A stretch of 64,000 bases of DNA. Origin: Winogradskyella forsetii (GTDB taxonomy: Bacteria; Bacteroidota; Bacteroidia; Flavobacteriales; Flavobacteriaceae). The position numbers were made by a program, and so were the translations under genes. The notes under the pieces were generated by a model, which saw only the letters and a program-made list of their open reading frames with translations, ran no database searches and had not been told where the DNA came from. Shown here one piece after another: positions 3,591 to 6,524 of this stretch; within the stretch, counting starts at the first letter, position 1, and each line of letters starts with the position of its first letter. The DNA lies in contig NZ_CP053348.1 in assembly GCF_013394595.1 (NCBI RefSeq), positions 1,178,001 through 1,242,000 of the forward strand, written 5' to 3'.

Positions 3591-4436
3591 TTAGGCCGCA
3601 TTGTTAATAATTCGTTTTAATTTAAGTTCCATTTCAAGTGGTGTTAAGTAATCTAAGCTTGAATGAATTCTTTTAGTATTATACCAAGTAATGTACTGGC
3701 TTATTTTGTCAAATAACTGTAAGTATGACGTAAACTTAAACCGATATAGCCATTCGTGCTTAATGGTCTTAAAAAAGCTTTCTGCTACTGCATTATCCCA
3801 ACAGTTCCCTTTTCTACTCATGGATTGTGTTATATTGCTATTGAAAGAAAAAATACTTGTCATTGTATTGGCTGCATACTGAACGCCTCTATCGGAATGA
3901 AATATGAAATTATTTGAAATAGTTCGATTTCTTCTGGCATGAATCCAAGCTTTTAACACCGTATTCTGTACAGTCATATCTTCGCTTAACGCCCATCCTA
4001 CAACCTTTCTGTCTGCTAAATCTATAATAGTTGTTAGATAATTCCAGTTGTCATTTACTCTAATGTAAGTGATGTCAGACACCCATTTTTCTCCTATTGT
4101 TGAACTTGAAAATTCTCTATCTAGCTCATTTTTAGCCAATGGAAAGTTATGCTTGGAATCTGTTGTATTTACAAACTTTCTTTTTAAAACACTTTTTAAC
4201 CCCATTTCTTTCATCAATATTGCAATATAGGAACGGCAATAATTCAAGTTTTCTCGTTCTAACATTTTCTGTATTCTACAGCTTCCATAAATCTCTTTAC
4301 TATCTTCAAAAATAGCTCTAATCCTTTCCTTTAGTAATATTACAGAGTCTTTAGTCCTTACTAAATCCCTATTCTTACGCCAATTGTAATATGCGTTTTT
4401 ACTGACATGCATACATTTACACATCTTCTCAACCAC
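3591..4436 (-). CDS. IS3-family transposase OrfB (DDE integrase domain)
   Basis: This is the catalytic half of the transposase. Counting from the GTG at 4436 there are 281 residues, but the frame is open well upstream, up to the slippery site at 4505-4511, so the natural product is an OrfAB fusion rather than a protein starting at this GTG. An HTH_21-like segment (about residues 40-90) precedes the rve domain. The DDE triad is Asp121 in WVSDITY, Asp182 in FHSDRG and Glu219 in NAVAESFF. No frameshift or stop interrupts it. Its stop codon lies inside the left terminal repeat. Confidence 0.93.
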   Translation of the reverse strand: MVEKMCKCMHVSKNAYYNWRKNRDLVRTKDSVILLKERIRAIFEDSKEIYGSCRIQKMLERENLNYCRSYIAILMKEMGLKSVLKRKFVNTTDSKHNFPLAKNELDREFSSSTIGEKWVSDITYIRVNDNWNYLTTIIDLADRKVVGWALSEDMTVQNTVLKAWIHARRNRTISNNFIFHSDRGVQYAANTMTSIFSFNSNITQSMSRKGNCWDNAVAESFFKTIKHEWLYRFKFTSYLQLFDKISQYITWYNTKRIHSSLDYLTPLEMELKLKRIINNAA

Positions 4437-4471
4437 AAAATCTGATTCATTTGATAAAATGAATTGATATT

Positions 4472-4753
4472 TTAGTGGTCGCTCTTGGAAAAGATGCTTA
4501 CTGCCTTTTTTAAGATATCACGCTCCATTTTTACATCTCGTAATTCTTTACGTAACGATTTAAGTTCTTGCTCTTCCATAGTAAGTTCTCTTTTCTTGGA
4601 AAAGTCTCCAGATTTAGCCTCGTAATCCTTTTTCCAGCGACTTATAAGGCTGGTAGCAACACCATAATCCTCACTTATTTGTTTTGCTTTCATTCCTGAT
4701 TGCAATAGTTCTACTATTGTAACCTTTAATTCATTGTCATATCTTTTTGCCAT
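4472..4753 (-). CDS. IS3-family transposase OrfA (helix-turn-helix)
   Basis: A 93-residue protein with an N-terminal helix-turn-helix (about residues 5-50, 'LLQSGMKAKQISEDYGVAT') that binds the element's ends, followed by a leucine-zipper coiled coil ('EEQELKSLRKELRDVK', about 60-85). Near its end the codons tta aaa aag form the heptamer A AAA AAG, which allows slippage into the OrfB frame. Free OrfA usually represses transposition. Confidence 0.93.
   Translation of the reverse strand: MAKRYDNELKVTIVELLQSGMKAKQISEDYGVATSLISRWKKDYEAKSGDFSKKRELTMEEQELKSLRKELRDVKMERDILKKAVSIFSKSDH
4505..4511 (-). promoter_or_regulatory. Programmed -1 frameshift heptamer A AAA AAG
   Basis: On the minus strand the OrfA codons tta-aaa-aag contain A AAA AAG in the correct phase. 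A -1 slip moves translation into the OrfB frame, which is open from here (reading K-K-G-S-K-H-L-F) through to the OrfB domain. This is the standard way IS3 elements make their active OrfAB transposase. Confidence 0.85.
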
Positions 4754-5138: not shown

Positions 5139-5475
5139 AACGTGATTGTTTAGTTTGATTTAAAGATAATAAAAGTTTTAATTGAAGCTCTTTTTTTTAT
5201 TTAAACCGTTAGTTGATTTTAAATCCATAAAAAAAGAAGTTAAGACTTTAAAGCTTAGTTTAGTTCTCGAACTATCAAAATGCACTAGAATTTAAATTAT
5301 AAACACAGCATTTTCTGAATTCAGTTTCCAATTTTTCTAAAGACGTCTTGAATAGGAGCAGTTCGTTTAACGTGTTTGTGTATGGTTAGTTGCGTGTTTG
5401 AGCAACTAAGTTAGCAAACAAATCACAGATAGAAAATTCCAGCGGAATTTTCGTAAGTCGGCAGTAACCTAGCAA
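5139..5475. other. Intergenic region with strong hairpins (337 bp)
   Basis: I see no gene here. Two perfect hairpins stand out: TAGTTGC/GCAACTA with an 8-nt loop (5387-5408), and GAAAATTCC-AGC-GGAATTTTC, a 9-bp stem with a 3-nt loop (5432-5452). Both follow the stop codon of the orphan gene at 5476-6369 (minus strand), so they may end its transcript, or be part of a recombination site (see findings). The part next to 5138 presumably held the VOC promoter. Confidence 0.6.
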
Positions 5476-6369
5476 TTAATTATACACGGTGTTGTGCAAC
5501 GCAGTTTTCTCAGCACTTATCGTTTTTCCTTCGCTATTTTTTGTTATACTTTTTTCTAAGTTACCATGTTTAGAATAATACATTTCAGTTGTTTCTTCAA
5601 GTTTTCCATTTACAAATGATGTAATGATTCTTGACTTAAATTGATTTCTATTATGGTAGTCAATAACAGTTATGAATTTTCTATCAAAGGTTTGAGAGTT
5701 ATAGCTTTTATAAACTTTTGTAATTCGTTTAGGTTTTTTGAACTTACCATATTCAATTCGATAATCTGATGTTAATTCATTACTACTATTGTATTTTTTA
5801 ATTTCAATAATTTTATTCTTTTTATAATGGTATGCTACTGAATCTGTTCTTTCGGGTTCATAACTTACAGAAGCAAGAAGTTTATTTTTATTATAAAACA
5901 ATGAATCCTGATATGTCCCAAATTCATCAATTTCAATATTGGCAATTAGTCTATGTTTTTTGTCGTAAAAGAACTTTGTGGTATCTGTTGTTTTATCTTT
6001 TCCCCATTTCCAAATTTCAACAGTTTGTTGATTTCGTTTATTATACTTACAGATAACTGTATCACTTTCCGCTTTTCTGTAACTAAAAATTATAATTTCT
6101 GTTAACTTATCTGGGTATTTAGTTTCTATTCGAGCAATTGTATCTCCATTTCGGTCTAACTCATAACCGAATTTTTCATATCCTTTTTTGTCATAAATTG
6201 CAATATATGATACATATGGTTTTCCATCTGTTGAATCAACTAATGTTGTTATTTTTGCAAAATAACTCTGAAATTTTGGTTTTTCACGCGTCATGTCAGT
6301 ATCAAAATATTCTTGCGAAAATGATAGAGAACTAACAAGAGTTAATATGATGAATAAAGTTTGTTTCAT
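5476..6369 (-). CDS. Orphan secreted protein with tyrosine-rich repeats, bracketed by inverted repeats
   Basis: I do not recognise a named family. From ATG at 6369 the 297-residue product has a clear signal peptide (MKQTLFIILTLVSSLSFSQ). An upstream TTG at 6381 is in frame but lies inside the boundary repeat, so I prefer the ATG. The body is a series of short beta units of about 20-25 residues with Tyr/Asp/Lys-rich motifs such as 'YDKKGYEKFGYELDRNGD', 'FFYDKKHRLIANIEID' and 'YYSKHGNLEKSITKN', reminiscent of YD/RHS or YwqK-type repeats but without their exact consensus. The last codons (LHNTVYN) are written by the boundary repeat itself. Likely periplasmic or surface located; function unknown. 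Confidence 0.6.
   Translation of the reverse strand: MKQTLFIILTLVSSLSFSQEYFDTDMTREKPKFQSYFAKITTLVDSTDGKPYVSYIAIYDKKGYEKFGYELDRNGDTIARIETKYPDKLTEIIIFSYRKAESDTVICKYNKRNQQTVEIWKWGKDKTTDTTKFFYDKKHRLIANIEIDEFGTYQDSLFYNKNKLLASVSYEPERTDSVAYHYKKNKIIEIKKYNSSNELTSDYRIEYGKFKKPKRITKVYKSYNSQTFDRKFITVIDYHNRNQFKSRIITSFVNGKLEETTEMYYSKHGNLEKSITKNSEGKTISAEKTALHNTVYN
5491..5500. repeat. Boundary inverted repeat GTTGTGCAAC, 3' side of orphan gene
   Basis: Ten bases that recur in inverted form as GTTGCACAAC at 6373-6382, on the other side of the orphan gene. It overlaps the last codons of that gene. Confidence 0.6.
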
Positions 6370-6372
6370 TAT

Positions 6373-6382
6373 GTTGCACAAC
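6373..6382. repeat. Boundary inverted repeat GTTGCACAAC, 5' side of orphan gene
   Basis: Inverted partner of 5491-5500, ending 3 bp upstream of the ATG at 6369. Confidence 0.6.
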
Positions 6383-6524
6383 TTTTCACTGATATGAGTC
6401 TGTTTTAATGACTTATTTCAGACGTTAAACGAAGTTAGTTTTTTTAAAATGAAAATCAAGCAGTTAGTCTGCTATTTGCTAATATTTTTTTACAATTGTT
6501 AACAAGCTAACATCACTTTTTTCA

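Follow-up and report, generated by a model that had tools for sequence, protein, structure and literature searches.

A solitary gene of Winogradskyella forsetii is very likely a mobile cassette of an integron-like system in Flavobacteriaceae and some other Bacteroidota

Sedentary chromosomal integrons of the Vibrio type share most with the flavobacterial system described here: large arrays of single-gene cassettes pointing in one direction, AAC and GTT boxes cut at G^TT, complementary cassette ends, an unpaired central spacer and a fold that favours the bottom strand (PMC2727003, PMC12901181). In classical attC sites, which have this unpaired spacer, a conserved extrahelical base in L'' sets the choice of strand (PMC2727003). 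The integron of Treponema denticola likewise has its integrase, attI and cassettes all in one direction, with intI transcribed towards attI (PMC3607928), but surveys class Spirochaete intI among the integron integrases, defined by an additional domain (PMC2426708); it is by this IntI domain that surveys recognise an integron integrase (PMC2426708, PMC9668308). Cassettes away from an integrase are known as CALINs, single attC sites and attG insertions, the last of these at G^TT in a genomic site (Loot et al. 2024, cited in PMC12901181), and both traits recur here, the insertion by inference. Integrons are very rare among Bacteroidetes in surveys, and IntegronFinder 2.0 names one complete example, in Salinibacter ruber (PMC9024848).

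We analysed a stretch of 64,000 nucleotides of the W. forsetii chromosome (hereafter the window) and a gene within it, very likely a mobile cassette that belongs to an integron-like system present in Flavobacteriaceae and in some further Bacteroidota. The evidence is comparative, and activity and strand use remain untested. The comparisons show directly that a cassette consists of one gene and a structured site and is cut at G^TT, and that cassettes form one-direction arrays, with exact copies across arrays. They show equally that a XerA/IntI-like tyrosine recombinase stands co-oriented ahead of arrays with an attI-like inverted-repeat site in between, and that the window cassette lies by itself within a dispersed attC-like element, downstream of a promoter-like motif. 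The features of the locus are as follows.

6430..6459, minus strand: promoter-like TTG-N19-TAACTTCG, upstream of the cassette and conserved with the landing element; function inferred
6383..6434, minus strand: proximal part of the landing element, TTCGTTTAACGTCTG...CAGTGAAAAG, an attC-like element of about 60 bp with its last G at 6382
5371..6381, minus strand: entire mobile cassette, 1011 bp, bounded by G^TT at both ends, a solo cassette
6373..6382, minus strand: cassette 5' end, the R' remainder GTTGTGCAAC, cut between G6382 and T6381
5476..6369, minus strand: cassette gene, 297 aa with a signal-peptide-like start, its stop within the L'' arm of the site
5491..5500, minus strand: R'' box GTTGCACAAC at the gene 3' end, complementary to the cassette 5' end
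5369..5493, minus strand: attC-like recombination site (AAC ... CGTT) of about 125 bp, the cassette 3' end
5472..5487, minus strand: L'' arm GTGTATAATTAATTGC, covarying stem
5432..5452, no strand assigned: first hairpin of the original prediction, in the terminal loop region
5386..5409, no strand assigned: second hairpin of the original prediction, TTAGTTGC/GCAACTAA, local and competing with L''/L' pairing; not the conserved pairing
5378..5393, minus strand: L' arm GCAACTAACCATACAC, covarying stem
5362..5370, minus strand: distal part of the landing element, TTAAACGAA, displaced by the cassette

The ends of the cassette were defined from 73 adjacent cassettes, 21 duplicate pairs and a homologous solo cassette in another genus. 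An IS3-type transposase pair was also seen beside the cassette locus, at 3591-4753 of the window; an ORF sharing its N-terminal protein sequence lies antisense in a cassette array near 2.179 Mb (L048, near 5056).

The original prediction, made from the letters of the window only, was of an orphan gene bracketed by inverted repeats, the first 3 bp before the ATG and the second written into the last codons, with two hairpins behind it and a layout recalling recombination cassettes. The repeats are where it placed them: GTTGTGCAAC occupies 5491-5500, and 6373-6382 holds its reverse complement. Read along the gene strand, the order is GTTGTGCAAC-ATA-ATG, so that the first repeat ends 3 bp 5' of the start codon at 6369, and the second is read through into the codons CTG CAC AAC ACC GTG TAT AAT TAA, with the stop codon at 5476-5478. 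Both hairpins exist 3' of the gene, GAAAATTCC-AGC-GGAATTTTC at 5432-5452 and the other at 5386-5409, although the latter is not the conserved fold, in which L' pairs with L''. The idea of a cassette-like insertion with a foldable site behind the gene is supported, and was understated. It proposed to look for further genes with an ending of this kind, and the genome has about 135 such cases. It would have been refuted by a lack of other boundary copies or by conserved synteny of the gene, and neither was encountered. Boundary copies are abundant, no site was found at loci beside the M14 peptidase in 29 relatives (the interval is too diverged for an orthologous empty-locus comparison), and the homologues of the gene are cassettes elsewhere. 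Among 399 genomes of the family these homologues number only two (G372, 36%; G398, 30%), one a solo cassette in another genus and one within an array. The solo homologue is laid out as in the window, with GTTGTGCAAAATAATG at its start and a site at its end. The product of the window gene has no match in Pfam or NCBIfam.

The bare 10-mer GTTGTGCAAC was rejected as a marker of the family. The genome has 17 exact copies of it and 16 of the reversed control, and its six occurrences in the window with at most one mismatch are reached by 20 of 100 shuffles; it shows no excess in either. The 10-mer is cassette-specific by design, and a search with it would therefore miss the system.

The surrounding sequence behaves differently from the bare 10-mer. 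A 171-bp stretch around it has at least 40 BLAST-level copies in the genome, iterated profile searches over fetched genome stretches gave about 121 copies of a site of about 135 bp, and 135 sites were found in the 4.51-Mb chromosome with a covariance model based on 60 distinct copies. The window site (5369-5493) scored 118.2 bits with this model (E 4.4e-23). The sites form at least 12 clusters, each on a single strand, with a spacing of mostly 0.3-2 kb or so. Unlike those of the Vibrio type, these arrays are scattered over many places of the chromosome. Each cassette holds one gene: in 83/91 between-site intervals the longest ORF is sense-oriented, the median coding fraction is 0.90, and the ORF starts about 26 nt past the junction and stops about 3 nt before the next site. 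Most array tails continue into further cassettes. Cargo includes defence-like, Fic, PIN and glyoxalase genes together with many unknown ones, and the array-wide Pfam scan revealed no dominant cargo.

Two observations fix both boundaries of the unit at G^TT. Across 73 adjacent pairs, the opening bases of each cassette (GTTGnnnnnn) are complementary to the R'' box at the 3' end of the same cassette at 88% of the six variable positions scored, compared with 43% after shuffling (maximum 55% in 2000 shuffles), whereas the two ends of one site match at only 48%. Complementary ends of this kind would follow from a unit that was formerly circular and is cut at G^TT. Duplicate cassettes form 21 pairs, whose members often lie in different arrays and sometimes on opposite strands; 59/60 bases match inside both G^TT boundaries and about 26/60 outside. 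No target duplication beyond the shared GTT was found; the unit includes a gene and is bounded by G^TT, so the criterion for an IS or MITE is not met.

The fold of the site was determined from 60 aligned copies, in all of which the AACA and CGTT ends are invariant. L'' and L' arms of 16 bases pair across a middle of 83 columns, about 80 nt apart. These arms covary, with 75 double-changed cells against 20.3 in shuffled alignments (0/500 reach 75), and shifting their register abolishes the covariation. Two columns are A.C in 60/60 sites on the top strand, which is G.T on the complementary bottom strand; more L pairs therefore form on the bottom strand (99%, versus 83% on the top), and the bottom strand folds better than the top in 55/60 sites. 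RNAalifold applied to the top strand recovers only 13 of the pairs because of these A.C positions. MFE folds of single sites sometimes miss the L''/L' stem, and the window copy on its own folds locally. R and L boxes are separated by a spacer of 3 nt on one side and of 5-6 nt on the other.

In several respects this site is unlike that of the Vibrio type. The two arms are equal in length in 52/60 sites (the extra base of the other eight lies in L'), two G.T wobbles are invariant, and no conserved extrahelical base was found in L'' in the 60 sites. The R boxes follow GTTRRRY only to the first R: cassette sites have GTTR in 73/76 and YAAC in 75/76, AAC being invariant, GTT nearly so and the remaining core-box positions free. 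We infer that the two wobble pairs, A.C mismatches on the top strand, would replace extrahelical bases in setting strand choice and orientation, although the strand used is untested.

A 378-aa tyrosine recombinase is encoded at 2,129,319-2,130,455, directly before the largest array and co-oriented with it. Its best families are the XerA-like NF040815 (198.4 bits, cut-off 220) and the integron integrase TIGR02249 (187.7 bits, cut-off 265); the genome encodes several tyrosine recombinases, and no protein in it passes the IntI model. XerA/XerC-like recombinases (NF040815) are thus its best match at family level, and the closest solved structure is 4a8e. It differs from XerA in scoring below the cut-off, in having about 95 extra N-terminal residues and an IntI-like SPLDxL C-terminal end, and in heading cassette arrays. 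Aligned with the Vibrio integrase structure 2a3v it has a gap at residues 206-245, which we take to be the IntI-specific region; the domain of about 42 residues on which integron surveys rely is absent. Unlike the Vibrio-type integrase it is also co-oriented with its array. The distance between the KGxxDR and HxLRH motifs is 58 in the array-associated proteins and 100-101 in six IntI-type proteins from the same search, and the IntI-type proteins form a separate clade in the tree (support 100/100). In the same tree, where one long branch (L158, its ORF probably in the wrong frame) was disregarded, the recombinase of a further genome of the genus (G025) groups closely with that of Winogradskyella ursingii.

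The association of this recombinase with sites recurs. In this and related genomes a site lies within about 2 kb at 10/20 recombinase loci, the other half having none nearby, and at 8 of these 10 the site is co-oriented and downstream. Among 80 named loci, same-strand arrays, of 3-10 sites in named genomes, follow the recombinase in W. ursingii, Algibacter onchidii, Seonamhaeicola aphaedonensis, Flavobacteriaceae S0862 and a Bacteroidetes MAG; no arrays were found upstream of it in these five. In four genomes an attI-like inverted repeat lies directly 3' of the recombinase gene, G^TT then starts the first cassette, and the end of this cassette complements the first site. Other array heads of the W. 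forsetii genome are diverged copies of the post-recombinase sequence (L226, L050, L042 and L055) or of a second sequence (L053, L232, L233 and L054). This second class reads ATATCCC..GGGATAT..ATTATATAACGA|GTT; its partner is unknown, and it may be an attI belonging to a second recombinase or to one that has been lost. Behind the same recombinase family in Arundinibacter stand sites whose arm sequences are entirely different but which keep the AACA ... CGTT layout and the complementarity of cassette ends. A second recombinase subfamily was noted with sites on the opposite side and strand, as in divergent classical integrons (L061:307-1120, L077:72-197).

The window cassette lies outside these arrays. 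When its flanks are rejoined, a perfect 10-bp outer stem is regained with nothing left over, and the rejoined sequence matches an element of about 60 bp in 48/68 genomes of the genus, several of the matches crossing the junction without a break. Intact copies were identified in relatives (L240, L241 and L246), another locus is also empty (L248), and the outer stem of intact copies carries compensatory changes (GCTTAAC/GTTAAGC). Empty sites were seen only in such other copies of the element; an orthologous locus in the empty state was not recovered at base level. In the relative L239 the element is occupied: a cassette-type start comes after it, and a site lies about 1 kb downstream. Within the genus, the promoter-linked attC-like element makes up a separate repeat family with up to about 10 copies per genome. 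It has canonical RYYYAAC and GTTRRRY boxes. The original prediction had held that integron core sites are not matched, and this failed in part: the AAC/GTT triplets, the G^TT cut and the complementary ends are integron-like, while cassette sites retain the full RYYYAAC/GTTRRRY consensus only in part, and it is complete only in the element that holds the window cassette. A dispersed, foldable, promoter-linked landing site with R''/R' boxes is unlike attG, an isolated degenerate site. The 11-bp inverted repeat TTCGTTTAACG..CGTTAAACGAA was considered as a pair of transposon ends and rejected, as it is the split landing element.

In the mechanism that we propose, the recombinase would excise cassettes as circles and insert them through the folded bottom strand of the site; neither of these events has been seen, nor has any circle. 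The assignment of the sites to this recombinase is an inference from position only. The window cassette would have entered the landing element at its G^TT, and its gene would be read from the promoter of the element, itself known only from its motif. On the comparative evidence, and without a recombination assay, the system works like an integron, with cassettes, structured sites, a recombinase, attI-like heads and cassettes placed elsewhere. By the IntI-domain criterion of surveys it is not an integron, and the usual extrahelical bases are also missing.

Three other explanations were considered. The one that survives best is compatible with the main explanation: the window cassette may be what is left of a former array whose other cassettes have gone, and not a single insertion at a secondary site. 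This remains possible, since solo cassettes could be shrunken arrays and at L239 an element of this kind is followed by a cassette-type start and a site; against it, the flanks in the window rejoin into a perfect landing element with no leftover. It is very unlikely that the arrays are CALINs left by a classical integron, with its true IntI elsewhere or lost and the XerA-like recombinase an unrelated neighbour. The integron-like architecture of the cassettes, R''/R' cut and folded site would fit, as would the several tyrosine recombinases of the genome. However, no protein of the genome passes the IntI model (the recombinase itself reaches 188 bits as a whole protein, against 265), the XerA-like recombinase recurs immediately upstream and co-oriented in many genomes with attI-like junctions, and array heads elsewhere are copies of the sequence behind it. 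That the site is a transposon/MITE-type or 3'-UTR terminator repeat spread without genes, the gene lying beside it by accident, is suggested by its repetition and hairpins but is all but excluded, since the cassette 5' end complements its own 3' end and not the site's own flank, duplicates take in the gene and stop at G^TT, and the arrays are one-stranded with one gene between sites.

Beyond the mobile-cassette explanation, a bolder reading joins four claims, and taken together we would give them no more credence than doubt. Folded-site cassette capture may have arisen, or may persist, in a lineage other than IntI; arrays of integron scale in most Flavobacteriaceae may be run by a XerA-like recombinase that lacks the IntI domain; invariant wobble pairs, not extrahelical bases, may set the orientation of the site; and scattered promoter-linked attC-like elements may act as landing pads.

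At E <= 1e-4, at least one site was present in 334/399 sampled genomes of the family (84%) and in 210/237 genera, counts that are lower bounds because at most 8 candidates were scored per genome; in one genome of the family the number of sites reaches 135. Across a phylum-wide sample, sites occurred in 50/247 genomes, in this family and scattered others. One large genus of the family (G186, G377, G509 and others) is without a site in most sampled genomes and offers a natural contrast group. We found no report of this cassette system in the literature searched, which was limited to open-access papers; surveys may have missed it because its integrase is of a different kind, without the IntI domain. 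Should the system be active, one of the commonest families of marine bacteria would have a main route of gene acquisition that has so far been overlooked; the system also bears on the open question of whether the IntI domain is needed for recombining folded single-stranded sites.

Variants of both site and cassette were also seen in the W. forsetii genome. A site variant of about 200 bp, with about 65 extra bases, recurs (L041:879-1078, L041:1883-2083 and others) and accompanies, for example, a 263-aa cassette present in five copies near 1.11-1.13 Mb. At least four arrays carry a cassette of 474-482 bp that has no sensible ORF in the sense direction (L043:3144, L045:14576, L047:16600 and L052:2891); it is possibly a non-coding RNA cassette.
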